Source of the DNA: Methanomassiliicoccales archaeon
GTDB lineage: Archaea; Thermoplasmatota; Thermoplasmata; Methanomassiliicoccales; UBA472
Assembly (NCBI GenBank): GCA_038740345.1
Contig: JAVYMA010000020.1
Location: forward strand, 1 to 36,423
Direction: 5' to 3'
DNA length: 36,423 nt
Positions 5,418 to 24,607 of this stretch are shown here, piece after piece. The position numbers and the translations under genes are program-made. The first letter of the stretch is position 1, and each line of letters opens with the position of its first letter. The notes beneath the pieces are model-generated. The model searched no databases. It had not been told where the DNA came from and saw nothing but the letters and a program-made list of their open reading frames with translations.

Positions 5418-5425
5418 AGAATCAC

Positions 5426-7078: not shown

Positions 7079-7079
7079 A

Positions 7080-7808: not shown

Positions 7809-7850
7809 AGTACTGCCCCTCCAGCATGATTGCATGTAAATTTGATAAGT

Positions 7851-8291: not shown

Positions 8292-8317
8292 AGGTGACCC
8301 CCTTTCCAACCTTCCGT

Positions 8318-8737: not shown

Positions 8738-9636
8738 TACTTCACTCCCACCATCATTAATTCTTGCATCCAATGTTCTAGCATTTCCAATTCTTCTAAG
8801 GGGACTTCCTCCCCCCTGCTCTTTGCTATATAGACCTTCTCAAGTTGATAATCCACTAACTTATAGATCTGCCTTAGTGCATAGCTGTCTATTCTGATCT
8901 TCTTATTTGACTTTGAGATTAAAGGAGCATCCTGCTGCAGTGGAGTTGCTTCGGAAATCATACTGGCTTTTTCAGACTGTTTAATTTTCGCTTTTTCACC
9001 CACTTCTTTGTCAATTTCCTCTACATTTATATCGAGATTAGCCGCTATGGATGAGTTATCATCGAATTTCAGCACCTTGTCTAAAGGCGCATTCAGATCT
9101 CTCGCCATTTGTATCTCGCCTTCCTCATCCACTATAGGGATACCCATCTCTTTATCCAACTTTGTTACTGTTTGCGGAACAGTCTCCTCCTTGAACGAAG
9201 GGACTTTGGGTGCAGCTTGATCCACGAAAGGATTGTACTGACGGCTCACTGCCTCATAAACTCCTAGCAGATTTTTGATGGAGTCGTTAATACTTTCAAT
9301 TTCCTTTCTCATCGACTCTACTTGCCCTTTAATGGAAGTCGAAGTATTTCCAATGGTCTCCACTTGATTCTTGAGCTCGTTGACGGTACCTTCCAACTGA
9401 TCGATCTTTTCATTCTTCGTGGTTAGCCCTGAAAGGATCTCATCTCCTCTGCCTAGCTTTCCACCGATGGTCCCCAATTCTCCGATTGATAGAGTATCCT
9501 CGTCTTCTCCCAATCCTAGCTCTTCTACATCGAGTTTCGCTGATAGGTCCTCCCCTCCCGCCTTCTTGTGTTTTCTGAACGGGAATGCCGCAAGAAAAAC
9601 AAAAGAGGAAGGGAGGGGAGCTGCACGGCGTTTCAC
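8737..9636 (-). CDS. Archaellum accessory protein of the FlaC/FlaD/FlaE family
   Basis: The signature is SIKNLLGVYEAVSRQYNPFV (about residues 120-140), typical of FlaC/D/E proteins that form the cytoplasmic ring around the motor and receive the chemotaxis signal in euryarchaea. A coiled coil precedes it (LEGTVNELKNQVETIGNTS to about residue 120). The C-terminal region (IDSYALRQIYKLVDYQLEKVYIAKSRGEEVPLEELEMLEHWMQELM) resembles the FlaD/E C-terminal domain, so this may be a single fused FlaCDE protein. The GTG at 9636 is preferred over that at 9645 because GGGGGAG lies 8 bp upstream of it, giving 299 residues. Oddly, residues 7-20 are hydrophobic (PLPSSFVFLAAFPF), which is unusual for a cytoplasmic protein. 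Confidence 0.82.
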   Translation of the reverse strand: MKRRAAPLPSSFVFLAAFPFRKHKKAGGEDLSAKLDVEELGLGEDEDTLSIGELGTIGGKLGRGDEILSGLTTKNEKIDQLEGTVNELKNQVETIGNTSTSIKGQVESMRKEIESINDSIKNLLGVYEAVSRQYNPFVDQAAPKVPSFKEETVPQTVTKLDKEMGIPIVDEEGEIQMARDLNAPLDKVLKFDDNSSIAANLDINVEEIDKEVGEKAKIKQSEKASMISEATPLQQDAPLISKSNKKIRIDSYALRQIYKLVDYQLEKVYIAKSRGEEVPLEELEMLEHWMQELMMVGVK

Positions 9637-9665
9637 CGTTATCACTCCCCCTTATTTTTTTTAGA

Positions 9666-9694
9666 TCTTCAGTCTGCTTATTTCAGGCTGAAGA
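9666..9694 (-). terminator. Hairpin spanning the archaellin stop codon
   Basis: The arms TCTTCAG (9666-9672) and CTGAAGA (9688-9694) are perfect 7-bp complements around a 15-base loop that contains the archaellin stop codon. There is no T-run after it on the minus strand; the following bases are A-rich. It could be a partial terminator, or an RNA stabiliser that keeps archaellin transcript above the level of the downstream fla genes. Confidence 0.4.
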
Positions 9695-10280
9695 ACTCGT
9701 TCGGGAAAGCCTCGCCAGTCTTGAAGGTGATCAGCGTTACCTGACCATAGGCCGGCATAATCTTGATCTCTCCGTCCTGGTTGAAGCCTATTCCCAGCGC
9801 CTTGTCCGTGGAGGTTATGGTGATCTTTATCATATCACCCTGGCCTACCACATGGGATCCAGTGCTCCATTGGAAGTCGGCTATGTTGACTTCCCTGCTA
9901 GCACTATAGGTCGTATCTCCGGCTGTATCACCGTATGCCAGGAACATGTTAAGGTCACCGCTCACGAGTGTGATGACCACATTGTCCAGGTTTATGGCTG
10001 GGGAGCCAGCGGCTAGCCTAACGTATATAGTTATGTTATCAACGCTGGCGCGTGTGCTCTGGTTAACTTGTGCCACAACGTCCTGAACCACGAATCCTGA
10101 AGCGACGTTGTTAATAGCCTGGTCACCAGTGGACTGAGCCTGCTCCCTTACCTGGTTTGCAGTGCTGATCAAGACGGACGCGGCTACGGCGGCAACCAGC
10201 ACCATGGCGATGAAGACGATCATCGTCCCGATGCCGATCTCACCTCTCTTGTCCTTCTTCATCCACATTTTCTTGTGCAT
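9678..10280 (-). CDS. flaB: Archaellin, major filament subunit
   Basis: The 200-residue precursor has a class III signal peptide: basic leader MHKKMWMKKDKRG, cleavage expected after G13, then EIGIGTMIVFIAMVLVAAVA, the hydrophobic helix that packs into the filament core. The rest is a beta-rich archaellin globular domain. Two N-glycosylation sequons are visible (NQS and NIT). AAGGAG nine bases upstream supports the ATG at 10280. Codons are GC-ending and uniform compared with the neighbours, as in very highly expressed genes. The prepilin peptidase that would process it is not in this window. It is the first gene of the archaellum operon. Confidence 0.95.
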   Translation of the reverse strand: MHKKMWMKKDKRGEIGIGTMIVFIAMVLVAAVAASVLISTANQVREQAQSTGDQAINNVASGFVVQDVVAQVNQSTRASVDNITIYVRLAAGSPAINLDNVVITLVSGDLNMFLAYGDTAGDTTYSASREVNIADFQWSTGSHVVGQGDMIKITITSTDKALGIGFNQDGEIKIMPAYGQVTLITFKTGEAFPNEFFSLK

Positions 10281-10409: not shown

Positions 10410-10441
10410 CTTATAACTCGAACTAATGCACAACCTAATAA
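10410..10441 (-). promoter_or_regulatory. Candidate TATA boxes of the archaellin promoter
   Basis: On the minus strand two boxes are possible: TTTATTAG (10434-10441) and GTTATAAG (10410-10417). Either would give a leader of about 105-130 bases before the archaellin ATG. The 16-bp dyad at 10464-10479 lies 22 bp upstream of the first box, close to its distance at the mcp promoter. Confidence 0.45.
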
Positions 10442-10463
10442 AGGCCCAAGGCACGGTTATCAT

Positions 10464-10479
10464 GAATCAAAGTTGATAA
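10464..10479. promoter_or_regulatory. 16-bp dyad, copy A (archaellin promoter)
   Basis: GAATCA-AAGT-TGATAA, one mismatch from the shared TWATCA-N4-TGATWA element. An extra TTATCA half-site precedes it at 10457-10462. It lies upstream of the archaellin TATA candidates, where an activator or repressor would bind. Copies B, C and D are at 11570, 13610 and 23019. Confidence 0.55.
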
Positions 10480-10520
10480 TAGCCAGGAATGAGAATAAAA
10501 AAGAATTCATGGGTATGTGT

Positions 10521-10534
10521 TATCTATTTAGATA
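10521..10534. promoter_or_regulatory. Perfect palindrome between usp and archaellin genes
   Basis: TATCTA-TT-TAGATA is a 6-2-6 palindrome in the AT-rich spacer downstream of the second usp gene. The rest of 10480-10669 shows no ORF. It may be an operator or an RNA hairpin; AT-richness makes chance occurrence possible. Confidence 0.25.
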
Positions 10535-10669
10535 GTAAAAATAGAGGGGAGTTAATAATATATTACAATTACAAGCGAGCAAAATGTTGAAAAAAGATTT
10601 TTCTATAAATGTACTAATAAAAAATTATTATCAATTAAAACATTATTTTATTAGATCTCTTTAAAAAAT

Positions 10670-11056
10670 CTATTTTGCCACGATGACTGTGCATGTAGAC
10701 TCCCGGATTACAATTTCTGGAAGTGTTCTGGAAAGAAGGTGAAATCCTTTCTGATATGAAGTTCCCACAACCAAAACATCGGCTTCAATCTCATTACTTA
10801 AATCGAGAATTTTTTTTGAAGGCTCTCCCGCTTCCATCATAGTTACCACCTCAACACCCTCCTCTGCTCCGCGGTTCTTAGCCTTTTCTAATGCCTTAAT
10901 GCCATTTTTCAACTCTCGAGTTTTGTAATTCTCTTTTCTTGGCTCTATTACATATAATACATATAATTTAGCACCAAAGGCTTTAGAATAGGACAATCCA
11001 GTTTGGATAGCCTTATCCGAATGTGCTTTTCCATCCGTTGCCACCATTACCTTCAT
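10670..11056 (-). CDS. Universal stress protein (UspA family), second copy
   Basis: The product has 128 residues from the ATG at 11056, which has GAGGT seven bases upstream; an in-frame start at 11086 would overlap the previous gene. The Usp fold is visible as MKVMVATDGKAHSDKA, KLYVLYVIEP, then EADVLVVGTS and CTVIVAK strands. The ATP-binding loop (G-x2-G-x9-G-S/T) is lost, as the sequence is GTSYQKGFHLLSRT, so this is likely a non-ATP-binding type. It probably pairs with its upstream paralogue as a heterodimer (inference). The genes are adjacent and co-transcribed, 5 bp apart. The role is unknown beyond stress or energy-state response. Confidence 0.85.
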   Translation of the reverse strand: MKVMVATDGKAHSDKAIQTGLSYSKAFGAKLYVLYVIEPRKENYKTRELKNGIKALEKAKNRGAEEGVEVVTMMEAGEPSKKILDLSNEIEADVLVVGTSYQKGFHLLSRTLPEIVIRESTCTVIVAK

Positions 11057-11061
11057 GCCTT

Positions 11062-11448
11062 CTACCTCACGACGGTAACCGTGCAATGAGCGTTCTTGAA
11101 TATTTGCTCCGAAGTACTCTTTCCACCTAAAAGTCCCCCGCTCCTACCTGAAGATCCGATGACCAACAAATCTGCCTCGATTCTTTCCGCAGCTCCTACA
11201 ATAGTATCTGAAGGATCTCCAGCTTCTAATAGGGCATTGACCTCAACACCCAACTCTGCACCACGGATTTTTGTTCTTCCCAATACCCTCATGCCATTTT
11301 TAATATTCTTATCCTTATCCTCATTAGATTTAGGCGAAACAACATAAATAACATACAATGCAGCCTTAAACGCCCTGGAAAAGGCGAAGGCGTACTCTAC
11401 GGCCTTTTCTGAATGGGGTTGTCCATCTGTTGCTGCAAGTATTATCAT
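11062..11448 (-). CDS. Universal stress protein (UspA family), first copy
   Basis: The product has 128 residues. It begins MIILAATDGQPHSEKAVEYA, with the Usp N-terminal Asp, followed by ALYVIYVVSP, EADLLVIGSSGRSGG and CTVTVV. The GSSGRSGG loop keeps the first half of the ATP-binding motif, whereas the downstream copy does not, so the pair looks functionally split. A TATA-like box on the minus strand (TTTATATTG, about 11529-11538) and a small hairpin at 11504-11517 precede it. The gene is divergent from cheR, with motility dyad copy B in the shared promoter region. Confidence 0.87.
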   Translation of the reverse strand: MIILAATDGQPHSEKAVEYAFAFSRAFKAALYVIYVVSPKSNEDKDKNIKNGMRVLGRTKIRGAELGVEVNALLEAGDPSDTIVGAAERIEADLLVIGSSGRSGGLLGGKSTSEQIFKNAHCTVTVVR

Positions 11449-11503
11449 GACGCATCACTCGCAAGGTATTGAAGGAAATGTTTTCATTCTATTTTCTTTC
11501 CAA

Positions 11504-11517
11504 CCTGCTTTCGCAGG
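11504..11517. promoter_or_regulatory. Short hairpin in the usp leader
   Basis: CCTGC-TTTC-GCAGG is a perfect 5-bp stem with a 4-base loop, 56 bp upstream of the first usp ATG and just downstream of its TATA candidate. It may be an operator or a leader hairpin. Confidence 0.3.
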
Positions 11518-11569
11518 CTCATCCGTTTCAATATAAACCAATCTGCATAGATAAATGAAATAGCGGTGG

Positions 11570-11585
11570 TAATCAAGGCTGATAA
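11570..11585. promoter_or_regulatory. 16-bp dyad, copy B (usp/cheR divergent region)
   Basis: TAATCA-AGGC-TGATAA. Read on the minus strand (TTATCAGCCTTGATTA) it matches copy D in 13 of 16 positions and copy A in 13 of 16. It lies 31 bp from the usp TATA candidate and 39 bp from the cheR BRE, so it could act on either gene. Confidence 0.6.
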
Positions 11586-11623
11586 CAACCCAGGATACTG
11601 GCTATCAACTAAAGCTATTTAGA

Positions 11624-11637
11624 CCGAAAAAATAACT
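11624..11637 (+). promoter_or_regulatory. BRE/TATA promoter of cheR
   Basis: A CCGAAAA BRE-like run is followed by the AT-rich AATAACTT, centred about 30 bp before the ATG at 11665. This predicts a leaderless or nearly leaderless message. A CTATTTAG box at 11615-11622 is an alternative and would place the start near the TTG at 11641. Confidence 0.45.
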
Positions 11638-11664
11638 TTATTGCATAAATTCTCAAATTGGGGT

Positions 11665-12501
11665 ATGAGTATCAATTACCTTGATCGAGATAAAGATTTT
11701 TTAGAGCTAAAAAGGAAAATCCTTAAAGAGTGTGGTCTGGACTGTAGTCAATACAAAGATTCCTATCTTTCTCGAAGATTCGCAATTCGCATGAGGGCTA
11801 GGGGAGCATCCTGCTATAAGGATTACCTATCAATATTAGAAAGAAATCCAGAGGAATACGACGCACTTTTAAATGATCTTACTATAAATGTAACGCAATT
11901 CTTCAGGGACCCCCCTGTATTTAAAGCCTTAGAAGATGAAATAATTCCTATTCTAATCTATGAAAAGGTAATGAAAGATGAGGGCTCCATCCATATCTGG
12001 AGTGCAGGGTGCTCTAGTGGAGAGGAGCCCTATTCTGTCGCTATGATGATAAGTGAGCTACTGAGTGACCAAGCAGAATCTTTCGACATTCGAATCCTAG
12101 CTACTGATATCGACGAATCAATTTTGGAGAAAGCTTTAGAAGGCAAATACCATCCTAAGCAATTAGTGAGTGTACCAGATAATTATATTAATAAATATTT
12201 TATATTTGATGGAGATTTTTATAGAATAACGGATAGTATTAAGGATATGGTCGATTTTAAGAAAATGGATCTTATATCTCAATCTCCTAAAGGATGCTTT
12301 GATATGATATTATGTAGAAACGTAGTAATCTATTTCACAAGAAAAATGCAAGAAACATTGTATATGAAATTCTATAATTTCTTGCGTGAGGGTGGATATT
12401 TTGTAATGGGAAACACTGAGACATTATTAGGCGAAGCGTCTAAATTTTTTATTCCAATTAATAGTAAAGGGAGAATTTATAAAAAAAAGGATATTAATTA
12501 A
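11665..12501 (+). CDS. cheR: Chemotaxis protein methyltransferase CheR
   Basis: CheR methylates glutamates of chemoreceptors using S-adenosylmethionine. The 278-residue product has the helical N-terminal domain (SYLSRRFAIRMRARG, TQFFRDPPVF) and the Rossmann-like domain with the SAM loop IWSAGCSSGEEPYSVAM, ILATDIDESIL, and the typical FDMILCRNVVIYF and LLREGGYF-like strands. The ATG at 11665 is preferred because the promoter lies about 25-35 bp upstream; an in-frame TTG at 11641 would add eight residues. It is the only chemotaxis gene on the plus strand, separate from the main che operon but sharing the dyad element in its promoter. Confidence 0.95.
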   Translation: MSINYLDRDKDFLELKRKILKECGLDCSQYKDSYLSRRFAIRMRARGASCYKDYLSILERNPEEYDALLNDLTINVTQFFRDPPVFKALEDEIIPILIYEKVMKDEGSIHIWSAGCSSGEEPYSVAMMISELLSDQAESFDIRILATDIDESILEKALEGKYHPKQLVSVPDNYINKYFIFDGDFYRITDSIKDMVDFKKMDLISQSPKGCFDMILCRNVVIYFTRKMQETLYMKFYNFLREGGYFVMGNTETLLGEASKFFIPINSKGRIYKKKDIN

Positions 12502-12654
12502 TTTCTTTTAAAAATAGCAGTGCTAAAAATTAGAAAATTGATTAAAATTTTTTGCTAATTTTTAAAAAACAATCAGTATCGATGATATTTTAATCGATAA
12601 TCGAAATGTTGAAATACTATTCTTCCTCATTGTCTTAATGCTGCATTTACGCTC

Positions 12655-12688
12655 TCTCGGTGTAGGTCGTGATGGATTCTCACCGAGA
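12655..12688. terminator. Hairpin between convergent cheR and the membrane-protein gene
   Basis: TCTCGGTG (12655-12662) and CACCGAGA (12681-12688) form a perfect 8-bp stem with an 18-base loop. It lies between two convergent genes and probably ends transcription from both sides. The left arm overlaps a 17-bp copy of the archaellin start region. Confidence 0.5.
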
Positions 12689-12703
12689 AACACTTTTCTT
12701 TCT

Positions 12704-13561
12704 TCACTCTATTGAAAATATCTTCACGGCAATTCGACCACCATCGAATTTGGAAACAAGTGCTACTGTCCATTGACCAAAAGGAAGAGTAGTTCCTGTG
12801 GAGATTATGTCTATAGTGTCTCCTGATTGGGGTATTCCGTATCTATTCTGCGCAGTAATTGAGATCTCAATCTCATCACTATAGCGCACAATCTGCTCTG
12901 TTCCTTCTCCAAGATCAAGATATTTTGGAAGCCGATCTTCAGAGATCCCAGGAGGATCTAAGTAAAGGCGGCAATAAGAGTAGTCTGTGGGTGGGGAGAT
13001 GATCCCGACTTCTAATCTGTACCTCCTATTGTCGATTTTATAAGCTGAAATAAAATCTCCTGTGGGATGGCTATCCATATCGGGAGAAACCAACGGTCGC
13101 GAAGCTATAGTTCTACCTGTCTTCTTAAAAATTAGATTTAAATTCCAAATACCTTTCTCAAGAGGATAATTGTGATAGAGTACAAGAAAATCTTCCGCGT
13201 CAATCTTCCCCATTGAAGTTGAATCACTAATACGAATTTCCGTTAGCTTAGTGAATAAGCCAGTGAGAGGATAAATGAGTTTGCTATCACTCAGTTCTAA
13301 AATGCATCTTTGATTGTCAGGTGATATTATTAATAAAAGGCAATCAGTGAAATTGACCGAAGGATTGCACTGACCGAACCAAACATGAATTTCATATACA
13401 CTTCTAAAGCTCACTGCACCAAACTCACCTTGAGGAGTGATTATCTCTTTCTCTGGCTCAATCAAATTGGATATTATAGGAATAAGAGCTATAGCTAAAA
13501 CAACTATAATTGCAGTTAGAACAGCATAGATGATTAGATAATGGTCTTTCTTCAGTCGCAT
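12704..13561 (-). CDS. Unknown membrane-anchored extracytoplasmic protein
   Basis: The 285-residue product has an N-terminal basic stretch (MRLKKDHY), one membrane helix at about 8-33 (LIIYAVLTAIIVVLAIALIPII), and a beta-rich exterior domain with few Cys. I do not recognise the family. It lacks a class III signal, so it is not a pilin or archaellin. It sits between cheD and cheR but has its own upstream region with dyad copy C 49 bp before the ATG and a CTTATTAC box (13589-13596) between them, so it is likely expressed with motility genes. Possible roles are an external sensor domain, a stator or cell-envelope partner of the archaellum; all are inference. Confidence 0.75.
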   Translation of the reverse strand: MRLKKDHYLIIYAVLTAIIVVLAIALIPIISNLIEPEKEIITPQGEFGAVSFRSVYEIHVWFGQCNPSVNFTDCLLLIISPDNQRCILELSDSKLIYPLTGLFTKLTEIRISDSTSMGKIDAEDFLVLYHNYPLEKGIWNLNLIFKKTGRTIASRPLVSPDMDSHPTGDFISAYKIDNRRYRLEVGIISPPTDYSYCRLYLDPPGISEDRLPKYLDLGEGTEQIVRYSDEIEISITAQNRYGIPQSGDTIDIISTGTTLPFGQWTVALVSKFDGGRIAVKIFSIE

Positions 13562-13609
13562 GCGTCAACATTTACCAGGGAAGAGGGCGTAATAAGACCT
13601 ACCGCACGA

Positions 13610-13625
13610 TAATCATCTATGATAA
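13610..13625. promoter_or_regulatory. 16-bp dyad, copy C (unknown membrane protein)
   Basis: TAATCA-TCTA-TGATAA, a full match to TWATCA-N4-TGATWA. It is 13 bp upstream of a TATA-like CTTATTAC on the minus strand and 16 bp past the cheD stop. Its position implies independent, motility-linked control of the gene at 12704-13561. Confidence 0.6.
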
Positions 13626-13641
13626 TTGTGTATTTGGAGAT

Positions 13642-14220
13642 CTAAATCTCGTATGTCTCTTGGCCTTTGCTTATTCGATATGTGCCGGTAGAAGGATAAA
13701 AGAAAACAGTGCGACCTTTATTTCCACCGCAGTCTTCACTGATCAACGGAACGCCTTCTTTCATGAGTGCTAACCTTGCTGATTCCGCATTCTTAAGACC
13801 TATATTTAGCATGTCGTTAGTGGCGAACTGGAACATCTGCGCACCACCCGCCATCTTAGCGCGTAAAGATGATTTTTTAGCCCCTTTCTCGATCAATTCA
13901 TCCACCATGAGAAAAACCGCAGTGTCCGCATATTTGGCAGCATTGCTCTTATCGCGTCCGAATTCATAGCAAGGAAGCATAGCATGCGCCAATCCTCCAA
14001 TTTTATTGTTTGGATCCCATATAGCAATGCCTACGCATGATCCTAAGCCCAAGCATACAAGATAACCCCCATCCTCATCGCACAGCGCAAACTCGCCAAC
14101 GCCAACTACGTTATCGCCTGTTTTGGACCTGACAGAACCAATTTTCCGTCTTTCAAGAGAAGTGGCTAATGAACTTATATCATCACTCGCTATGCTACTT
14201 GAAAAGGGAATAGAGGCCAT
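13642..14220 (-). CDS. cheD: Chemoreceptor glutamine deamidase CheD
   Basis: CheD deamidates receptor glutamines and, in Bacillus, binds CheC to control its activity. The 192-residue product carries the catalytic Cys in CLGLGSCVGIAIWD and the His in GGLAHAMLP, with the downstream AKMAGGAQMF and NIGLKNAE segments of the family. The N-terminal 30 residues are Ser-rich and not conserved. The ATG at 14220 lies 4 bp after the cheC1 stop. It is the last gene of the che operon and is adjacent to two CheC genes, in keeping with a CheC-CheD partnership. Confidence 0.94.
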   Translation of the reverse strand: MASIPFSSSIASDDISSLATSLERRKIGSVRSKTGDNVVGVGEFALCDEDGGYLVCLGLGSCVGIAIWDPNNKIGGLAHAMLPCYEFGRDKSNAAKYADTAVFLMVDELIEKGAKKSSLRAKMAGGAQMFQFATNDMLNIGLKNAESARLALMKEGVPLISEDCGGNKGRTVFFYPSTGTYRISKGQETYEI

Positions 14221-14224
14221 GTGC

Positions 14225-14866
14225 TCACTGAGTCAACCCGAATTTGTTCAATAGCAGTCTGCGAGATTCGCGGTCCGGAAGATATAGAATTGAACCGCCA
14301 TATGAATTGCCTTCATATATGAATCTAGTCTTTATTACCACGACGTGATCCATTTGCTCTGCCACTAGGGCCGCTGGATATTGTAAGATGGCAGCAAGCA
14401 TGTCGATAGCAACAGCTGGAGGAGATGGAATCATAGTCTGATCTAGGAACTGAGATATGGCACTAAGATACGCTGAAGCGCATATATTCCCTATCTCTGC
14501 CACAGCTGCCATATCATCCTCATCCAAATCACGATTTAAGGTGGGCTGCCGGCCTATTAATAATTCAGAAAGTGATTTGGCCATTTCTTGAGGAAAAAGG
14601 ATCAATATGGCTCCTTTCTCATTGGCTATGGCGTCTAAAAAGCAAGCGACTACTACCTCTTCTTGATTTCCGAACGTGGAAGGAAGCTGCTCTGCCTTAC
14701 AAATAAAACATTCAGGGACATCGACCATTATCGTCCTTTTTACAAGATTAGTCAGAGCCGTGGAGGCATGCGCCGCGCCGATGTTTCCTATTTCACGTAG
14801 AGCATCGACCTGCATGGCATCGAATTCTGATATAGGTGAGGGCTTATCATTTTCCACTATCGTCAC
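14225..14866 (-). CDS. cheC: CheY-P phosphatase CheC, copy 1
   Basis: CheC removes phosphate from CheY-P. This 213-residue copy has both active-site helices: LREIGNIGAAHASTAL, with the Pro 23 residues after the Asn (VDVP), and VAEIGNICASAYLSAI, with a Pro-rich IPSPP in the matching place. Both sites look competent. Translation starts at GTG 14866, preceded by GAGGTGAT that overlaps the stop codon of the previous gene, so the two are probably coupled. Confidence 0.94.
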   Translation of the reverse strand: MTIVENDKPSPISEFDAMQVDALREIGNIGAAHASTALTNLVKRTIMVDVPECFICKAEQLPSTFGNQEEVVVACFLDAIANEKGAILILFPQEMAKSLSELLIGRQPTLNRDLDEDDMAAVAEIGNICASAYLSAISQFLDQTMIPSPPAVAIDMLAAILQYPAALVAEQMDHVVVIKTRFIYEGNSYGGSILYLPDRESRRLLLNKFGLTQ

Positions 14867-14875
14867 AATATCACC

Positions 14876-15550
14876 TCAGCAAATTGTACTAACTCCGAAC
14901 TTGGCGAAAATGGCCATTTGTGTTTCTGTGTCCACCCCGAACTTCTTAAAGGTAAGTTCTTGGGTCTCTTTTTCAGGTATGAATATAATGCTTCCTTGGA
15001 AGGTTTTTGTTGCGTCGACAAAGTTGGTCTCAATCCAAACCTGGTGGTCCGCATGAGTCTTAAGCACCCATTCAGGAAAGCTTTGTTGTGGGCCCACGAT
15101 ATCGATATATACCGTAGGTGGTGTGGGCATCATATCAGTGCCAAGAAAGCGCGAGATGGGATTGAGGTATTCACGAATGCAAATATCTCCCATTTCAACT
15201 AAGGCGTCTTTATCATCCTCGGCCAAATTGCGAGCGGGATCGTGAGCTCTACCAAAAAGAAGGTCTGACAACCAGGTGATAATGTTCTTGGGAAAGAGCA
15301 TCAGGATATGGTCTTTATCACTTCCATTGATATCAATGGTAATTATGGCTACGGTTTCCCCTGGACGATCGAACCAATGCGGCATTTTATTCAGGGGTTC
15401 CGTATGGCATTGTGTTACATCTATCAACATATCTTTCATGGCGAATTTGGACAGGGCGGTGGAAGCCCATGATGCGCCAACATTACCTAGTTCTTTCAAT
15501 GCGTCTATTTGCAGTTCGTCGATTTCCGTGACACATGTTTTTCCGCTCAT
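14876..15550 (-). CDS. CheC-family phosphatase, copy 2 (imperfect sites)
   Basis: The product has 224 residues from the ATG at 15550, whose ATGA overlaps the cheA stop. A longer frame to 15697 lies inside cheA and has no support. The first site, LKELGNVGASWASTAL (E20, N23), lacks the trailing Pro, with Thr in its place. The second, LVEMGDICIREYL (E119, D122), has Asp instead of the catalytic Asn. Each phosphatase site is therefore altered, in contrast to copy 1. It may be a regulator, a CheD-binding protein or a heterodimer partner rather than an efficient phosphatase. A C-terminal tail of about 20 residues follows the last family motif. Confidence 0.88.
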   Translation of the reverse strand: MSGKTCVTEIDELQIDALKELGNVGASWASTALSKFAMKDMLIDVTQCHTEPLNKMPHWFDRPGETVAIITIDINGSDKDHILMLFPKNIITWLSDLLFGRAHDPARNLAEDDKDALVEMGDICIREYLNPISRFLGTDMMPTPPTVYIDIVGPQQSFPEWVLKTHADHQVWIETNFVDATKTFQGSIIFIPEKETQELTFKKFGVDTETQMAIFAKFGVSTIC

Positions 15551-17517
15551 ACAAATGCCCCTACATCCAATATCATAGCCACTTTCCCATCCCCAAGAAT
15601 GGTGGCACCGGAGAAATAACCGGTGGAGCGTAGATCTTTTCCCACGCTCTTCACCACAATTTCCTGTTGACCGATTAACCTGGAGACAAGAAGGCAAGCC
15701 CTGTTATCATTTTTCTCCACGATTATGGCTGGCACATCCTTGCCCTGTTCTGTGATTGAACCACCGAAAACAGAATGTATGTTGATAACTGGTAGAACCT
15801 CTTCCCTTAGACGAAACATGGCCCTCGAGCCCACTTCATGCACTTTTGTCGTGTCTACACGTACGGTTTCTCTTACATTTTCTAATGGTATAGCATATTT
15901 TTCTTTGTTGACTTCAATGAGCATAGCCCTAATGATACTCATGCTGGGAGGTAATTTTAGGGTGAATTTAGTCCCTTTTCCGATTACAGTATCCACCTTG
16001 ACAAATCCTCCCAGACTTTGGATTTTTGTCTTTACGACATCCATCCCCACGCCACGTCCAGAAATATCTGTAACTTTTTCCGCGGTGGAAAATCCTGGGA
16101 GGAAGATAAGGTTTACTTTTGCTCGCTCATCCATGCGGTCCGCTTCTTCCTGACTTATCATACCTTTTTCCACTGCTTTCCGCGCCACCTTGTCGGGGTC
16201 GATTCCTCTCCCGTCATCCTCGACAGTTATTACTACATTACCTTGTTCCTGAAAGGCACTCAATATCAAAGTTCCCGTAGGATTCTTTCCCGCGGCAATC
16301 CTCTGTTCCTTTGATTCGAGTCCGTGATCTACACCATTGCGTAATAGATGAACTAATGCATCACCTATTTCTTCCAGCAGAGAACGGTCTATCTCGATAT
16401 CGTTACCTCGCATTATGAAATCAATGTTCTTACCTGATTCAACTGCCATATCCCTGACCATTCTGGGAAACCTCTTAAATATGAAATCCACTGGCACCAT
16501 TCTAGTCTTCAGCACAATATCCTGAAGATCAGTCATTAGCCTGGCATTGGATTGCAACGTCTGTTTTAATTCTCGGTTTTTTAAGTTGCTCGCGATCTGA
16601 TTTATACGAATATTGTTTATCATTATCTCGCCAACAAGATTCAGAAGTTGATCCAAAAGTTTGGCCTTAACACGTATCGATGCCCCTGAGCTATGGCCAT
16701 CCCCCTTCGTATCCGTACTGCTCCCCTTTTTCTCCTCTGATTCCTTTTCCATTTGGATTTCCTTTTCTACTTCAATCTCGTAGGTGGTGATATTTGCATC
16801 AGCAATGGCCGTAACATTCTTAGCAACGCGAAGAAGCTCATCATCATCATGGTTCGTAGCGAGAAGTATGCTGAATTCAGCATCCTCTTCCTTGACCTCG
16901 TTAATGGTGGGAAGGGAAGATATTACAATCCCCACCTTCGAAAGGTTTCTTATTAATTGAAACGCCCTACCCTCTTTCAACTTACAGCCCGGTGAATAAT
17001 AGGCAGTAAGTTTTACCAATTTCTTGCCTTCTTTTACAGCCTCCAACAACTGCTGTCGTTGGTCTCCAGCTAGGCTAAATCGTCCTCCCCCTGCCCGGGA
17101 AACAGGATTCTGCGAATCAATACGCTTTTGTTTTTTCGTCTCTTCAAGCATACATCTGATTCTTTCTTTAATTTCCTCGATGCTCGAATTCGTGGAGCCG
17201 CTGTAGGCTAACTCATTTAACATACGCTCAATGGTATCAAGGCCGCAGAAGAGAAGGGAAACCTGCTCCTTAGAAGGGGACTGTGCCCTTTCTTTAAGGA
17301 CATCGAGAAAATCCTCCATCACATGACTAAGCTCTGAGATTGGCTCGATTCCCATTACAGCCGCAGTACCTTTTATAGTATGCAGAATGCGGTACGCTTC
17401 TTTAAGGGCTTCAGCTGAATAACCGTGTTCCTCTAATTGTAAAAGGGCAGAATTTACTATTTGCAGATTATCTCTCGCTTCCTCGATGAACGCGTCCATG
17501 TACTGCGTCTTATCCAT
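15547..17517 (-). CDS. cheA: Chemotaxis histidine kinase CheA
   Basis: CheA phosphorylates CheY and CheB in response to receptors. The 656 residues show, in order: HPt domain P1 with H46 in LHTIKGTAAVMG; a P2-like ferredoxin-fold domain (about 165-250); the P3 dimerisation helices (about 280-345); the P4 kinase with N box HLLRNGVDHG, G1 EDDGRGID and G2 GRGVGMDVV; and a CheW-like P5 domain to the C-terminus. The linker 251-278 is charged and flexible. The ATG at 17517 is 4 bp after the cheB stop. The size and domain order are typical of archaeal and Bacillus-type CheA. Confidence 0.97.
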   Translation of the reverse strand: MDKTQYMDAFIEEARDNLQIVNSALLQLEEHGYSAEALKEAYRILHTIKGTAAVMGIEPISELSHVMEDFLDVLKERAQSPSKEQVSLLFCGLDTIERMLNELAYSGSTNSSIEEIKERIRCMLEETKKQKRIDSQNPVSRAGGGRFSLAGDQRQQLLEAVKEGKKLVKLTAYYSPGCKLKEGRAFQLIRNLSKVGIVISSLPTINEVKEEDAEFSILLATNHDDDELLRVAKNVTAIADANITTYEIEVEKEIQMEKESEEKKGSSTDTKGDGHSSGASIRVKAKLLDQLLNLVGEIMINNIRINQIASNLKNRELKQTLQSNARLMTDLQDIVLKTRMVPVDFIFKRFPRMVRDMAVESGKNIDFIMRGNDIEIDRSLLEEIGDALVHLLRNGVDHGLESKEQRIAAGKNPTGTLILSAFQEQGNVVITVEDDGRGIDPDKVARKAVEKGMISQEEADRMDERAKVNLIFLPGFSTAEKVTDISGRGVGMDVVKTKIQSLGGFVKVDTVIGKGTKFTLKLPPSMSIIRAMLIEVNKEKYAIPLENVRETVRVDTTKVHEVGSRAMFRLREEVLPVINIHSVFGGSITEQGKDVPAIIVEKNDNRACLLVSRLIGQQEIVVKSVGKDLRSTGYFSGATILGDGKVAMILDVGAFV

Positions 17518-17521
17518 AGGA

Positions 17522-18559
17522 TCATACTCCTACTTCCGTCATCGCCATGACGATATGCCTAGCAATCTGGTCTATAGCCGCCACTCTATCTGCTATACCT
17601 GCGTCAACAATGGCTTTAGGCATCCCATAAACCACACATGAACTCTCATCCTGAACTATTGTCTTGCCTCCCTGCCGTTTTATTTCTTTCATGCCTTCAA
17701 GACCATCGAAGCCCATTCCGGTAAGAATCACGCCTACGCATCGAGGCCCATAAACTGGTGCGACACTGATCATCATCGGATCCACAGCAGGCCTAACATA
17801 ATGCACCTTCGGACCCTCATCGAGATGGATTCGATTTTCCTTGAGCACCATATGTTTATTTCCAGGTGCTAACAAAGCCACTCCTTTCTCTATTCTGTCT
17901 CCTTCTTGAGCCTCCCTAACTTCGATGGACGAGATCCAGTTAAGGCGCTCTGCGAATGAACGTGTAAATCCCTCGGGCATATGTTGAACTATCAGGACGC
18001 CAGCTGGGAGATCAGAAGGAAGGCGGGAGAGAACTTCTGGAAGTGCCTTAGGGCCCCCTGTAGATGCTCCGATCATAATGACCCAGTCGCCAGCGGTTGA
18101 TTTTACCTCACAACTTAGAATAGGTTTCTCATCTGAGGGTGGTAAAGGCCTTACTTCAGCCTTTGCTGCAGCCTTGACCTTTTGAATAATCAGATCTCTT
18201 TCCATCTCAAGATCTAACGATAGAGAGGCGCCGGTCTTTGGAATGAAGTCCACTGCGCCTCTTTCAAGAGATTTCAGTGTGAGTTCGCTCTGCCTTTTTC
18301 CAACAGCAGAGAGCATGACGACAGGAACTGGGCTTTCTACCATTATGTGTTGCAAGGCTGTGAGACCATCCATCACAGGCATCTCGATGTCCATGGTTAC
18401 AACATCAGGATGCACCTCCTTAACCATCCGAATTGCCTCCATACCGTTCTTGGCCGTGGCTATGACCCTTATGGAAGGATCCTTTTCGAGAATTTCAGCT
18501 ATTATCTTACGCATCACCGCCGAATCGTCCACCACCAGAACCCGCAATGGTCCGGTCAA
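17522..18559 (-). CDS. cheB: Receptor methylesterase CheB
   Basis: CheB is a receiver-controlled methylesterase/deamidase of chemoreceptors. The receiver domain has D11, D12, phosphoacceptor D57 (TMDIEMPVMDG) and the Lys of FIPKTG. The catalytic domain has the Ser in IGASTGGP, the His in VQHMPEGFT and the Asp in GMGFDG. I favour the TTG at 18559 (345 residues) because GAGGAG lies nine bases upstream; the TTG at 18568 is directly adjacent to that site. It follows cheY in the operon by about 20 bp. Confidence 0.95.
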   Translation of the reverse strand: MTGPLRVLVVDDSAVMRKIIAEILEKDPSIRVIATAKNGMEAIRMVKEVHPDVVTMDIEMPVMDGLTALQHIMVESPVPVVMLSAVGKRQSELTLKSLERGAVDFIPKTGASLSLDLEMERDLIIQKVKAAAKAEVRPLPPSDEKPILSCEVKSTAGDWVIMIGASTGGPKALPEVLSRLPSDLPAGVLIVQHMPEGFTRSFAERLNWISSIEVREAQEGDRIEKGVALLAPGNKHMVLKENRIHLDEGPKVHYVRPAVDPMMISVAPVYGPRCVGVILTGMGFDGLEGMKEIKRQGGKTIVQDESSCVVYGMPKAIVDAGIADRVAAIDQIARHIVMAMTEVGV

Positions 18560-18580
18560 GCCACACAACTCCTCTTCTCT

Positions 18581-18949
18581 TTAAGCGCACGCCTTACATG
18601 CCGCCTCAACTAGGTCCTTATGCTCAAAAGGTTTGACTACAAATTCCCTAGCTCCGTTTTCCATGGCTTGCATCACTAGATTTTTTTGATTTAGCCCAGA
18701 GACCATCAGGACTCTGGCATTGGGGTCAACAGCCATTATTCTCTTTACGACCTCAATCCCAGTTTCTCCAGGCATGATAACATCCATGGTAACAAGGTCT
18801 GGTTTCAGCTTGGTATAGAGCTCAAAGGCCTCTGCGCCATTCTTAGCTTGTCCTACCACTTCAAAACCGTTCTTGGACAGGATATCTTTTATCATCGACC
18901 GCATGACAACCGAATCGTCCACGATCAGAACTCTTTTCGCACCACTCAT
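18581..18949 (-). CDS. cheY: Chemotaxis response regulator CheY
   Basis: This is a 122-residue single receiver domain with D11, D12, phosphoacceptor D56 (TMDVIMP), Ser84 at the Thr/Ser position and K106 in VVKPF. In archaea CheY-P acts on the archaellum motor, usually through CheF and FlaC/D/E. The ATG at 18949 has GGAGG within the end of cheW and lies 3 bp after its stop. Next to cheA and cheB this is the diffusible output of the pathway. Confidence 0.95.
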   Translation of the reverse strand: MSGAKRVLIVDDSVVMRSMIKDILSKNGFEVVGQAKNGAEAFELYTKLKPDLVTMDVIMPGETGIEVVKRIMAVDPNARVLMVSGLNQKNLVMQAMENGAREFVVKPFEHKDLVEAACKACA

Positions 18950-18952
18950 TCA

Positions 18953-19477
18953 CTAAGCCTCCACTTTTTCACCTTTTCCTGTGCTGATTACCATATTCAT
19001 TTCGCCTTCTTCGCTGATAATCTTCTCCAGGTCCAGCAGCATTATCAGTTTATTTTGGAGCTTACAAATTCCATGAAGGAAGGAGGATTGCAGATCGGCA
19101 GAGAGTGTCTTCGGCACAGGAGAGATAGAATTTCGTGGAACTCTCATAACGTCCTCTACCGAATCCACAATGATTCCTAATTGGTGTTCTCCTATCTCTG
19201 CCACGATTATCCGGGATTGAGAGGTCCGTTTGGGGCCATCCTCGGATATTATTCCAAAGCGTTTCTTCAAATCGATGACAGTGGTTATCTGACCTCGGAG
19301 ATTCATGACCCCTTCCACATATTCTGGCATCTTAGGAATGTGGGTGATGTCCTGGACTTTTCCTATTTCCCTCACCTGCGCAACCTTGACAGCGAATGTC
19401 TCTTTTCCCAGGCGGAAGGATACGATTTGTTCTTCATCTCCAGTTAGCTCAATCTTCTCTCTTCTTCTGCGCATCAT
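18953..19477 (-). CDS. cheW: Chemotaxis coupling protein CheW
   Basis: CheW couples receptors to CheA in the signalling array. The 174-residue SH3-like product has the standard segments QIVSFRLGKETFAVKVAQVREI, IPKMPEYVEGVMNLRGQITTVIDL and LGIIVDSVEDVMRV, with the family's NLRG loop. A short basic N-terminus (MMRRRREK) and a C-terminal tail of about 20 residues are extra. AGGAGG lies just upstream of the double ATG (19477, 19474). It is 9 bp after the receptor gene stop. Confidence 0.95.
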   Translation of the reverse strand: MMRRRREKIELTGDEEQIVSFRLGKETFAVKVAQVREIGKVQDITHIPKMPEYVEGVMNLRGQITTVIDLKKRFGIISEDGPKRTSQSRIIVAEIGEHQLGIIVDSVEDVMRVPRNSISPVPKTLSADLQSSFLHGICKLQNKLIMLLDLEKIISEEGEMNMVISTGKGEKVEA

Positions 19478-19486
19478 TAACCCTCC

Positions 19487-22400
19487 TCAGGCCTCGATTC
19501 CGCGTTTTATCAACGCTTCCCTAACCTTTTTAGGCATAGCTACCTGCCCTTTCCCCGTCTCTTTTTTACTTCCCTCTACAACTTTGCTCTGCGATGGCTT
19601 TTGCTGCTTTGCTTTACTCTCCAGCTCATCATTTATTTTAAATTGAGATGACACTTTTTGCAGTGCCATAGCCATCTCTGAGAGCGCTTGGGCCCGCGCA
19701 GTCATATCCTCCATACTTGCAGTAAGTTCCTCTGTGGATGATGCACTTTCTTCCGCTGCAGAGGCTGTCTCCTCAGCTATAGATGCTATTCCATCCACCG
19801 CCTTGGCTGATCTTAGCATCTGGTCTTTCTGTTGGTCAATCAGTGGTCCAAGCCTATCAAGAGATTCATCAACGGAAGTTGCTAAGCTATCAATCTCCTG
19901 GAAGGCTTTACCGGTCCGATCCGCGATTTCAATGCCTTCGGCTGTCTCTTTCGTACCACGTTGCATGCTCTCCACTGCCTTAGCAGTCTCGGCCTGCACT
20001 TCCTTGATCATCTTGGCGATGCGCTCGGCGGCCTCGCGCGAATCCTCTGCTAGATTCTTCACTTCCTCGGCCACCACGGCGAACCCTCGTCCCTGCTCTC
20101 CGGCCCTGGCCGCTTCGATGGCGGCGTTCAGAGCCAACAAGTTGGTCTGGTCAGAGATATTGGTGATTACATCCACTATCTGTCCAATCTCCTCAGATCT
20201 CTTACCCAAAGAAGCTATTACCTTTGCCGACTCTTCCACCACTGCTTGAATCTCCCTCATCTTTTTGATGGTCAAATCCACCGTAGATCGTCCCATCTTC
20301 GCCGACTGTGAAGACGCTTTCGCAGCATCAATGGCGGCTTTTACAGTCGAACCAACTTTCTCGCTAGAAGAAGCCATCTCAGCCATCATTTTAGCTGTGT
20401 CCTCCACCTGAGCCGCTTGATTCTGCGCCCCTTTAGAAATTTGCTGAATAGCACTCGAAACTTGCTCGGTTGAAGCATTCATCTCTTCTGCCGAAGATGC
20501 GAGCTCCTGAGAGGTAGAGGAAACCATAGCCACAGAGTTATTTACTTCTTTTAGAAGCTGGGTAAGTGACTCCCCTGTGTGATTAAGGGCATCAGCGAAT
20601 CTCTTGAAATCACCCTTTAGATCGATATCTATCCTAGCAGTCATATCTCCTTTGGAATAGGCTTCTGCAACTCTCATCGCCTCTTCGATCGGACCTATAA
20701 CTGCGTCCAGAGTGCTGTTCACACCCTCGACAATGATCCTATATTCACCCTGATGGCGCGATGCATCTGCCCGTGTGGACAATCTGCCTTCGGTCGCTGC
20801 TTCGGTGAGCATTCGAGCGTCGGCCGTTAGGTTAGAAATCGCCTCTACAACTTGAGCCAGCGAAGCATTTATTTTCGAAAAATTCTCTTTTGCCTCTACA
20901 GTGTATTGGTCTCCTTCACCAACCATGGTGTCAAGCTCAAGTTGGCCCTGGGAAAGCTTCTTTAGATTTGAGGCAACGCGCTCCACCTCTTGCTTCATAT
21001 AATTAGCGTTCTTCTGCGTCGCAGTGATATCTTGGACGACTTCTATGTGGCCGACATTTTCACCTTTGGCATTCTTAATGAAGGCAACGTCCACCTGAAA
21101 ATTCATGCCAGCTTGCTCGAAGAAAGTCCTCGTTTCACCATTGCGCAATTTGGCTATTCCGCAATTCTTTGTTCCACAAATGTTTGCATTCCAATTGCTG
21201 CATTTTTTACCTAAAATGTCCTTCCGTTTAATCTTTAAAAGATCCTCCACTGCTTTATTTATGAAAGTCCAGTTCATTTCTTTGTCAGTCACAGAAAGAG
21301 GCATAGGAACAGCATCCAAAAGCTGCTCATACCAAAAGATCTTGTCCACTATGGTATCAAGGGTGGCGTTAAAACCAGCCACGACTTTAGCATAGTCGCC
21401 CTTATGCCTGGTAACATCAGCTCGAACATTGAACTTTTCTGCTTTCGCGGCATCTGCGAGCATCTCAGCGTCAATGATGAGACTGCTAATCGCCTCGACT
21501 ACCTGCGAAAGGTTGGCATTCATCTTGATGAAATTTTCTCTCGCTTCTTTGGTATATGAATCGCCTTCTCCGACAGCAAGATCCAGATTAAGATCGCCAG
21601 CAGAAAGCCTCTTCAAATTAGCAGCTATTCGCTCTACCTCTGATTTGGTATAGAGATTTAAACTGCGAGCCGCGGTGACATCTTGGAGGACTTCCACATG
21701 ACCGATCTTCTCTCCCTTAGCATTCGTCAGGTATGCCACATCTATCTTGGTATGCTTTCCATCCCTTCCAGTGTATGTTGTTGTTTGACCTGATCTCAAT
21801 CGAATGATTCCGCACTGATCGGTGTTGCATATCGGCCCTTGCCAACAAGAGCAATGCTTTCCCAGTACATTCTTTCTCGAAGTTTTTAAAACATTCTCCG
21901 AAGCCTTGTTGATGAAAGTTATTTTCATATCGGCATCAGTCACTGAGAGAGGGAATGGAATAGAATCTAGAATTTGCTCATACCAATAAGTCCTATCAAC
22001 CACCACATCTAAAGTCTGATTAAGGGCATGCACTATGGCTCGATAATTACCTTCATACTTTGACTCGTCCGCCCTGGATGAGAACTCTCCTCTCTTGGCC
22101 GCCTCGGTTAATAATTCCACATCTTTTGTTATTTCGACCTCGTTAGAGATATCCACAATATGTTCTACAGCTCCCACTACTTTACCATTTTTATCAAAGA
22201 CTGGTGAAGCTGAAACACGAATAGGAATCTCTCTTCCTTCTTCTGTACGTGCTACTGCGTCCCCATGGACAGATTTTCCCTGAATGGCCATTTTTACAGG
22301 ACAATGCTCTGTTCTGCAAAATTGTGTGTTGAATAGTTTGTAGCAATCCTTTCCGAGAACATCTTTCTCTTCCTTTTTTAGAAGGTTCAATGTCGCTTTG

Positions 22401-22879
22401 TTGGCGTACATTATTTTATAATCCAGATTAATTGCTACGATAGGAGTTGCGACTGCATCTAAGTAAGCACTGCACATATCCTTATGAAGCGAGATCTCTT
22501 TGATGAACCCTATTCCACCAATGACCTTACCTTCTCGATCTAATATCGGCTTTGCGGATATGGAACATAAGCGCTCCTCGTCTTCAAGCTTTAAATTAAC
22601 TTGTTCAAGTTCGATCGATTTGCCATTTTTGATGCTCTCTGCCAATGGACACCCTTTACCTCCGATGGAACCCCCGAATACGTCCTTGATCCGCATTCCT
22701 ATTGCCTCATCTTCAGTGATGCCTGTGAGCTTTTCCGCTCTTTCATTGAAATGGGTTATTTTCATATTCGCATTGATTGCAAAAGCTGCTAAGGGGAGAG
22801 TGGAAATCATCTCCTCAACCGCGAAATAATGACTTTCTTCAGCTTGTCCTTCCATTTCATACACCTCTGTTTTCATCAT
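19487..22879 (-). CDS. Soluble methyl-accepting chemoreceptor with four PAS domains
   Basis: This 1130-residue receptor has no membrane segment, so it should sense cytoplasmic signals. In order: PAS1 (22-130), PAS2 (135-250), a HAMP-like unit (256-297), PAS3 (300-405), a helical linker, a second HAMP-like unit (473-511), PAS4 (515-620), a third HAMP-like unit and HAMP (690-775), then the signalling domain (790-1085) with the tip [20 protein letters not shown]. Residues 256-472 and 473-689 are tandem copies with an exact 217-residue period. PAS2-4 share a C-x7/8-C-x4-C motif near their ends (C179, C188, C193 in PAS2), a possible metal or redox site. The start at 22879 lacks a Shine-Dalgarno site; the ATG at 22855 has GAGGTG six bases upstream and may be the true start. 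It heads the che operon under dyad copy D. Confidence 0.93.
20813..22114 (-). repeat. Tandem 651-bp duplication inside the receptor gene
   Basis: The two units are 22114-21464 and 21463-20813 (minus strand), each 217 codons. Matching landmarks are [16 protein letters not shown] and [34 protein letters not shown] and [18 protein letters not shown], and [20 protein letters not shown] and [21 protein letters not shown] third, truncated start of the unit follows at residue 690. The copies have diverged considerably at the protein level. Confidence 0.85.
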
Positions 22880-22990
22880 GTCCAGATATTCGTCGGTTCA
22901 TAGACCCCTTGCTTAGGCCGTTATGCATGACCGCTAGTGACACTTTATTAAGGTGCAAATTTAACGGCAGAAATAGGACGATAAAGAAGG

Positions 22991-22998
22991 ATTATAAG
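22991..22998 (-). promoter_or_regulatory. Candidate TATA box of the mcp-che operon
   Basis: CTTATAAT on the minus strand lies 20 bp downstream of dyad copy D and would give a leader of about 90 bases before the receptor gene. A second possibility nearer the gene is TTAAATTT (about 22956-22963). Confidence 0.4.
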
Positions 22999-23018
22999 CG
23001 CTAATATCCCATTATCTT

Positions 23019-23034
23019 TTATCAGCACTGATAA
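23019..23034. promoter_or_regulatory. 16-bp dyad, copy D (mcp-che promoter)
   Basis: TTATCAG-CA-CTGATAA is a perfect 7-2-7 palindrome and the most symmetric of the four copies. It lies between the divergent mcp-che operon and the epimerase gene, 20 bp upstream of the mcp TATA candidate. Confidence 0.65.
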
Positions 23035-23128: not shown

Positions 23129-24034
23129 ATGACTATAAAGATGAAGATCGTTATTACTGGCGCATCTGGGCAATTGGGTTCGTATTTAATGGATTTGGCA
23201 ATGGAGGATCATGACGTTCTTGGAATAGACCTGCGCCCATCCTCTTTCAGAAATCACGTTTCGAAGATTAATGTTGGAGACATAAGAGACCGGAACTTAA
23301 TAGAAAATAGCTTGAGGAACTGTGATGTGGTAATTCACTGCGCTGCTCAAGTAAGCGTCGTAAATTCTATTAGGGATCCCTGGTACGACTTGGATGTGAA
23401 CGTCGGTGGAACTATTACACTGCTAAATGCTTCCGTTAATGCAAGAGTTAAGAAATTCATTTATATCTCATCGGCAGCAGTCTATGGTGACCCCATTTCG
23501 ATTCCGATCAAAGAGTCTCATCCACTCAACCCAAAATCGCCATATGGAGCGAGCAAAATGTCAGCAGAACAGTATTGTAAGGTGATGTCAGCAATCTCCG
23601 ATTTGCCGTTCGTGATTATTCGTCCTTTTAATTTCTATTCGCCAAGAGCCGATCCAAAATCACCATATTCTGGTGTGATAACGAGATTCGTGGAATGGGC
23701 AAAAAAGGGCCAGCCATTAAAAATAGAGGGGGATGGAGAGCAGACGCGGGACTTTATCCATGCTAAGGATGTAGCTAGAATGATAATGATGATTGCCTTA
23801 TCCAGTGTTAGGGGGATTGCCTTCAATTGTGGATCTGGCAGAGGAACGAGCATAAATGCCTTAGCAGAAGCTGTGGTGGAAGCGTGTGGTAAGAAAATCG
23901 ATGTTATACATGTTTCTCCGCGTCCTGGGGATATTCGTAACAGCATTTCTGACATGTCTCTTGCCAGAAATTGCCTGCAGTTCAAATCGGAGATAGATTT
24001 ACATCAGGGGCTTCTCGAGTTCTTTAAAGATTAG
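23129..24034 (+). CDS. NAD-dependent sugar-nucleotide epimerase/dehydratase
   Basis: This is an extended short-chain dehydrogenase of 301 residues. The NAD loop is GASGQLGS (G11, G14, G17). The catalytic set is SSAAVYGDP (S114/S115) with Y139 and K143 in SPYGASKMSAEQY. The substrate-domain motifs FNFYSPRADP and GDGEQTRDFIHAKDVA follow the UDP-glucose/UDP-GlcNAc 4-epimerase (GalE-like) pattern. The exact sugar cannot be told. It could supply glycans for the archaellin sequons or the S-layer. The ATG at 23129 is chosen; a second in-frame ATG at 23141 is possible. The gene diverges from the mcp operon and converges on a winged-helix gene across a hairpin. Confidence 0.88.
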   Translation: MTIKMKIVITGASGQLGSYLMDLAMEDHDVLGIDLRPSSFRNHVSKINVGDIRDRNLIENSLRNCDVVIHCAAQVSVVNSIRDPWYDLDVNVGGTITLLNASVNARVKKFIYISSAAVYGDPISIPIKESHPLNPKSPYGASKMSAEQYCKVMSAISDLPFVIIRPFNFYSPRADPKSPYSGVITRFVEWAKKGQPLKIEGDGEQTRDFIHAKDVARMIMMIALSSVRGIAFNCGSGRGTSINALAEAVVEACGKKIDVIHVSPRPGDIRNSISDMSLARNCLQFKSEIDLHQGLLEFFKD

Positions 24035-24157: not shown

Positions 24158-24526
24158 TTACATTTTCGCAACAGGGATTGCGTTCTGCATAAAGACGGAC
24201 ATATCGATATCATAATTATAATCCTCAGTAGTTCCGTCAATCATCTCAAGTCTCGCTTTTATTTTATTTTTCTCGAAAATTATCTGGGCATTCATTACAC
24301 GTGATTTATACATAGACATGCGCTTTCCGCTTTGTGTTAGCTTTCTTTCAGCGCATATCAAAAGACCTGCCTCCTCTAGTGACCTTATCTTCCGATAGCA
24401 GGCAGCTATAGGAATCCCCAGCTTTTCGCTCAATTCGAAAGCGCTCTTAGGTCTACCCATCGTGGCAAGGAGAATTTTCGCAGAATACTCCTCGGTCAAC
24501 AGCTTCGATGTTTCAAGTGCGTGCAT
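24158..24526 (-). CDS. Winged-helix DNA-binding regulator (ArsR-like)
   Basis: The 122-residue product starts with a winged helix: TEEYSAKILLATMGRPKSAFELSEKLGIPIAACYRKIRSLEEAGLL (about 11-56), followed by the wing. A C-terminal segment of about 45 residues (IIFEKNKIKARLEMIDG) has no recognised ligand motif. GGAGGT eight bases upstream supports the ATG. A TATA box (minus strand TTTAAATA, 24579-24586) and a 17-bp inverted repeat directly upstream of it suggest autoregulation. EarA, the archaellum activator of methanococci, is also a winged-helix protein, but I cannot claim orthology. It is a plausible regulator of the nearby motility or CO dehydrogenase genes (inference). Confidence 0.82.
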   Translation of the reverse strand: MHALETSKLLTEEYSAKILLATMGRPKSAFELSEKLGIPIAACYRKIRSLEEAGLLICAERKLTQSGKRMSMYKSRVMNAQIIFEKNKIKARLEMIDGTTEDYNYDIDMSVFMQNAIPVAKM

Positions 24527-24578: not shown

Positions 24579-24607
24579 TATTTAAAAAATATTGATTGAG
24601 AATCAAT
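24579..24607 (-). promoter_or_regulatory. TATA box and operator-like inverted repeat of the winged-helix gene
   Basis: TTTAAATA (minus strand, 24579-24586) is preceded by ATTGATT-GAG-AATCAAT (24591-24607), a perfect 7-3-7 inverted repeat that covers the BRE position. A winged-helix dimer bound there would block TFB loading. Confidence 0.5.

Follow-up and report, generated by a model that had tools for sequence, protein, structure and literature searches.

A conserved TWATCA-N4-TGATWA dyad at archaellum and chemotaxis promoters of Methanomassiliicoccales and its candidate winged-helix regulator

The stretch of DNA analysed here (the window, 36,423 nucleotides) is one entire contig (C20, JAVYMA010000020.1) of a Methanomassiliicoccales genome of 1.79 Mb in 47 contigs. 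It carries a minus-strand archaellum (arl) cluster, two universal stress protein (usp) genes, cheR, the gene of a 285-aa protein, an mcp-cheW-Y-B-A-C-C-D operon, an epimerase gene and the gene of a 122-aa winged helix-turn-helix (wHTH) protein (Table 1). Among named genomes, the best match to the archaellin (80% identity) is found in the Methanomassiliicoccales metagenome-assembled genome Prado233. A first-pass annotation had pointed out a shared 16-bp dyad, TWATCA-N4-TGATWA, at four promoters of this contig, and the four sites do lie where it placed them, all in intergenic DNA (dyads A to D). This element is a real, conserved operator, most likely that of a CsmR-type system, which was not previously known from this lineage. 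We assign a probability of about two in three to the reading that, in archaellated Methanomassiliicoccales, a CsmR-like winged-helix regulator uses it to control the archaellum and chemotaxis genes, the regulator most likely being the 122-aa protein.

Where 0.02 exact copies of the dyad would be expected, the window has three, a number reached by none of 100 dinucleotide shuffles, in agreement with the earlier estimate that fewer than 0.1 full matches would arise by chance where three occur together with a single-mismatch copy. Allowing one mismatch, the four sites found against 1.17 expected are not significant alone, as 6 of 100 shuffles did as well, but the mismatched dyad A gains support from the two closest archaellin promoters, which have a dyad in a similar position. 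ATCA/TGAT pairs are most frequent at a gap of 4 bp (n = 7), and no other gap from 0 to 12 gave more than four. A fifth copy, dyad E, precedes the wHTH gene; it was absent from the first list because it departs at two positions from the consensus used there.

Regarding the distance to the TATA-like box, the first values (13-22 bp for three copies, about 30 bp for dyad B) had to be corrected to 21-22 bp for the archaellin and mcp promoters and 14-15 bp for that of the 285-aa protein, and dyad B has a usp-facing ATTTATC at +14 and no good box toward cheR. Taking the motility promoters with a clear box together, oriented to their genes, the box mostly starts 14-17 bp past the dyad, while the value of 21-22 bp is that of archaellin and mcp in the window and its nearest relative (G001), in which the dyad D 16-mer is identical; some motility promoters present no clear box. 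At the two window sites with the box at +21/22 rather than +14 (10464-10479 and 23019-23034), an extra GATAA-like half-site was also seen 7-8 bp past the second half of the dyad (TGATTCATGATAA, GATAAAAGATAA).

The genome-wide scan confirmed that the motif is rare and stands ahead of archaellin, MCP and response-regulator genes. The whole genome holds six exact copies, three of them in this 12-kb part of the window, against none of the control, which is the reversed pattern and contains ACTA/TAG, possibly depleted, so that all enrichment ratios against it may be overstated; at one mismatch there are 42 sites against 10. Single-mismatch intergenic dyads precede the second archaellin gene (C44), the third (C2:48189) and a response regulator (C2:50660). 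Moreover, the only other MCP gene (C15:38956) is preceded by a single-mismatch dyad, and thus both MCP genes of the genome (n = 2) have one. An exact copy lies ahead of a response regulator-PAS gene (C16:18063), and intergenic copies were also found ahead of a camelysin-like gene (C26). The absence of copies inside genes, claimed earlier, holds within the window but not genome-wide: the exact copy at C11:3327 falls in an Fe-ADH-like open reading frame (ORF), and about one third of the one-mismatch copies lie inside ORFs, these presumably by chance.

The dyad is conserved in related genomes, though not at every archaellin promoter. Across 41 genomes of the order, 55 exact copies were found against 2 of the control, located ahead of archaellin genes in G005, G008, G014 (two) and G018, ahead of mcp in G001 and G018 and also, between mcp and cheR, in G029 and G032, as well as ahead of cheC in G018. 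When genes were picked by family search and not by the motif, and a site was defined by at most one mismatch, it was present at 8 of 11 MCP genes and at 9 of the 20 archaellin genes evaluated (four more could not be evaluated), compared with 6 of 113 other genes (about 5%), these six being mostly divergent neighbours of targets. The corresponding Fisher p values are about 4e-7 for MCP and 2e-5 for archaellin genes, for related genomes that are not fully independent. AT-richness does not explain these sites, since the loci with target matches mostly have 53-62% G+C.

The winged-helix gene at 24158-24526, already named as a candidate in the first pass, is the best one, because a dyad stands at a fixed position ahead of all its orthologues examined. 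It lies 1.1 kb from dyad D and the mcp promoter, and the gene order mcp-epimerase-wHTH is conserved in the nearest relative. Most families of the order have orthologues (59-97% identity over the alignment), and none were found in genus g6 or in most genomes of family f2. In 30 of 30 orthologous loci, TCA-N4-TGAT is found about 70 bp ahead of the start, extended to ATCA-N4-TGAT in 25 of them. Essentially all 30 promoters have a TTAWATA box 15 bp past the dyad, while the surrounding sequence has diverged. The protein scores 30.9 bits with HTH_20 (cut-off 27) and does not reach the cut-offs of the named Lrs14/Phr/ArsR families NF040939 (13.2 vs 90), NF053602 (18.4 vs 320) and NF033788 (12.1 vs 55). 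By sequence, its closest solved structure is Phr 2P4W; a single-sequence AlphaFold2 model (mean pLDDT 46) was too poor for a fold search.

We infer from these data that the 122-aa protein binds as a dimer immediately before the transcription factor B recognition element (BRE) and the TATA box, each ATCA half-site being contacted by one recognition helix (IPIAACYRKI). Once bound, it would most likely help to recruit TFB/TBP at the promoters of archaellin, mcp-che and other genes, and it would control its own gene through dyad E. Recruitment is the more likely action because archaeal activators work from this same position, immediately before the BRE (PMC5512572).

The first pass knew of no description of such an operator for this group; the same operator has been published, although the report concerns Halobacteria and not this order. 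CsmR (HVO_1209) is a 13-kDa winged-helix motility regulator of Haloferax volcanii (PLoS Genet, June 2026; PMC13286277), whose motif in chromatin immunoprecipitation sequencing, TATCA(N4)TGATA, is found in arl and che promoters next to the TATA box, on its upstream side. Its gene was reported mainly in Halobacteria and in some Thaumarchaeota, and the protein was described with a KaiC-like partner, CirA, with the cell-shape targets sph3/rdfA and with a Foldseek match to Phr 2P4W (PMC13286277). Here the operator, its position upstream of BRE/TATA, the archaellum and chemotaxis targets, a small winged-helix protein near motility genes and the link to Phr 2P4W are the same; the likeness is drawn from operator, position, target class and the published description of the protein. 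On the other hand, this is another class, the regulator gene is beside mcp-che and not arlA, its own promoter has a fixed dyad, and a family of paralogues exists.

EarA (PF07381), the other archaellum regulator of euryarchaea, which binds repeated TACATA hexamers in Methanococcus maripaludis and Pyrococcus furiosus (PMC10665913, PMC5512572), is likewise a winged-helix protein bound to the arl promoter immediately before its BRE, but it belongs to another protein family and its hexamers are unlike the TTATCA dyad. It is absent here, as in Haloferax: PF07381 was found in 0 of 21 genomes of a sample of relatives that included the source genome, with a positive M. jannaschii control. Phr, the heat-shock regulator of P. 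furiosus (2P4W, NF053602), is the best sequence match to the wHTH domain, but a weak one (18.4 vs 320 bits). Haloarchaeal plasmids encode proteins with up to 39% identity to the window wHTH (E 2e-12) and the helix IPIATCYRRI. None of those inspected was linked to archaellins; they adjoin queuosine, transposase, transport or sensor genes, and searches of haloarchaeal plasmids with archaellin and ArlH queries found no arl cluster. Two of three homologues checked have no dyad ahead of their own gene, and L190 has a two-mismatch dyad at -34.

Several observations weigh against the proposed regulator or its role. Archaellin promoters of G011, G016 and G025 and two of G005 have no site. The source genome encodes at least five wHTH paralogues, several of which have the same half-site ahead of their own gene and the same recognition helix, so that another of them may bind the motility dyads. 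Family f22 has wHTHs and zero exact dyads, family f18 has 67 exact dyads (11 control) in 26 genomes with no detected wHTH of this family, and both protein and dyad persist in relatives without archaellins. Finally, csmR deletion in Haloferax raises arl/che transcripts yet abolishes motility (PMC13286277), and an activator role is therefore not secure.

The weakest alternative, that AT-rich intergenic DNA gave rise to the dyads by chance, could appeal to the window's one-mismatch count, just modestly above chance, and to the copies of f18 without a detected wHTH; it is hardly credible given the exact count against shuffles, the genome-wide control, the conservation at orthologous promoters, also in loci of 53-62% G+C, and the fixed spacing in essentially all 30 wHTH promoters. 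It is unlikely, but far less so, that the operators are real and a different family member (C1:50921, the C34 tandem pair, C1:136619) occupies the motility sites, or that several paralogues compete for them, with the flanks deciding. All paralogues compared have the helix IPIAxxYR or a close variant, and the flanks do differ: motility dyads read TTATCA..TGATAA, the sites of window-type regulator genes GA/AA-ATCA..TGAT-TC/AA, and those ahead of C1:50921 and the tandem-type paralogues GTATCA..TGATTC and CTATCA..TGATAT. Since paralogues share the helix and several have a dyad with other flanks, the family as a whole probably recognises the core; at motility genes, the che-linked copy is favoured, being linked to mcp-che both here and in G001. 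Tandem wHTH pairs also recur in the class (L201, L204-L207), where the first gene is mostly preceded by CTATCA/TTATCA-N4-TGATAT at about -70.

Repression of the motility genes from upstream would fit the rise of arl/che transcripts in the csmR deletion strain (PMC13286277). This seems somewhat unlikely to us, as the dyad overlaps neither the TATA box nor the start site and stands upstream of BRE/TATA at near-fixed spacing, the place of activators such as EarA (PMC5512572).

Concerning the breadth of the regulon, the first-pass reading of a dimer-type operator at motility and chemotaxis promoters is supported by its rarity in the genome and its conservation in related genomes, but "dedicated" was too strong: the dyad is also found ahead of genes for response regulators, for clostripain-like proteases in three genera and for large surface proteins, ahead of the regulator gene and its paralogues, and in relatives without archaellins. 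The system is neither of a new kind nor restricted to motility. Class-wide, 153 exact sites (4 control) were counted in 60 genomes with a wHTH and 91 (19 control) in 91 genomes without one, the latter mostly in f18, so that strict co-occurrence of motif and wHTH was rejected; the f18 dyads may serve a diverged homologue or some other regulator. Counts of the 5-mer palindrome without flanks are weakly informative, since coding palindromes dominate them.

Other copies deserve mention. The TBP gene is preceded by a one-mismatch dyad and, at +13, a TATA-like box (L043:1509, G000:C36). A DUF835/7TM protein gene lies divergent from the gene of a clostripain-like secreted protease, and the promoter between them holds two one-mismatch dyads (L020:5637-7192, G000:C2); clostripain-like genes of G005 and G011 have exact dyads. 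In G050 and G065 (family f16, L215-L226), at loci of 53-57% G+C, there are 6-10 perfect TTATCA-N4-TGATAA copies, many of them intergenic, ahead of non-motility genes, apparently another regulon using the same operator. The 2.6 Mb genome of G090 (family f19) has 23 exact copies against 0 of the control and nine wHTH family members.

As a tentative extension, which we regard as possible but not probable, the ATCA-N4-TGAT operator and the IPIAxxYR winged-helix family could make up an old regulatory family of archaea, common to Halobacteria and Thermoplasmata. The paralogues in it would keep one half-site, be auto- or cross-regulated through it, and divide motility, signalling and cell-surface genes by flanking bases, CsmR being one haloarchaeal member.

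In the papers searched, we found no transcriptional control of swimming for Thermoplasmata methanogens, and Methanomassiliicoccus was cited as non-motile in a 2016 census (PMC4858521). Here an operator was obtained together with its candidate regulator and a list of targets. That motility promoters of a non-halobacterial lineage lacking EarA have the CsmR operator suggests two alternative systems of archaellum control in Euryarchaeota, and the conflict in Haloferax between activator and repressor becomes testable in a second lineage.

Table 1. Genes, dyads and TATA-like boxes of the window.
Feature	Position	Strand	Remarks
Downstream archaellum genes	3696-9645	-	FlaC-domain protein, 151-aa protein (likely arlF, a label resting only on gene order and a weak match), arlG-like, arlH (KaiC), arlI (T2SSE), arlJ (T2SSF)
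Archaellin	9678-10280	-	PF01917 (Pfam); first gene of the arl cluster
TATA-like box, archaellin	10435-10442	-	TTTATTAG; starts 22 bp past dyad A
Dyad A	10464-10479	-	TTATCA-ACTT-TGATTC, one mismatch; toward archaellin
Second usp-like ORF	10670-11086		After first usp
usp	11062-11448	-	Universal stress protein, PF00582; dyad B target judged by box position
TATA-like box, usp-facing	11550-11556	-	ATTTATC, sequence read directly; 14 bp past dyad B
Dyad B	11570-11585	none	TAATCA-AGGC-TGATAA; divergent usp/cheR intergenic region
cheR	11641-12501	+	At least 56 bp from dyad B; listed start TTG, ATG at 11666
285-aa protein	12704-13561	-	Hydrophobic N-terminal segment (by eye); no Pfam family
TATA-like box	13590-13596	-	CTTATTA; about 14-15 bp past dyad C
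Dyad C	13610-13625	-	TTATCA-TAGA-TGATTA; toward the 285-aa protein gene
mcp-cheW-cheY-cheB-cheA-cheC-cheC-cheD operon	13642-22879	-	
TATA-like box, mcp	22991-22998	-	CTTATAAT; about 21 bp past dyad D; conserved in G001
Dyad D	23019-23034	-	TTATCA-GTGC-TGATAA; ahead of the mcp-che operon
Epimerase	23129-24034	+	NAD-dependent; divergent from mcp
wHTH protein	24158-24526	-	122 aa; candidate regulator
TATA box, wHTH	24579-24586	-	TTTAAATA; 14 bp past dyad E
Dyad E	24600-24615	-	GAATCA-AAAT-TGATTC (GAATCAATTTTGATTC); 74 bp ahead of the wHTH start; putative autoregulatory site

Two further features of the window were noted. A hemerythrin-like ORF (by eye) lies at 100-417, near the arl cluster of a methanogen, and a gene of the Prismane/CO-dehydrogenase family is located at 25317-27257, preceded by a very short ORF for a cysteine-containing peptide at about 25030.

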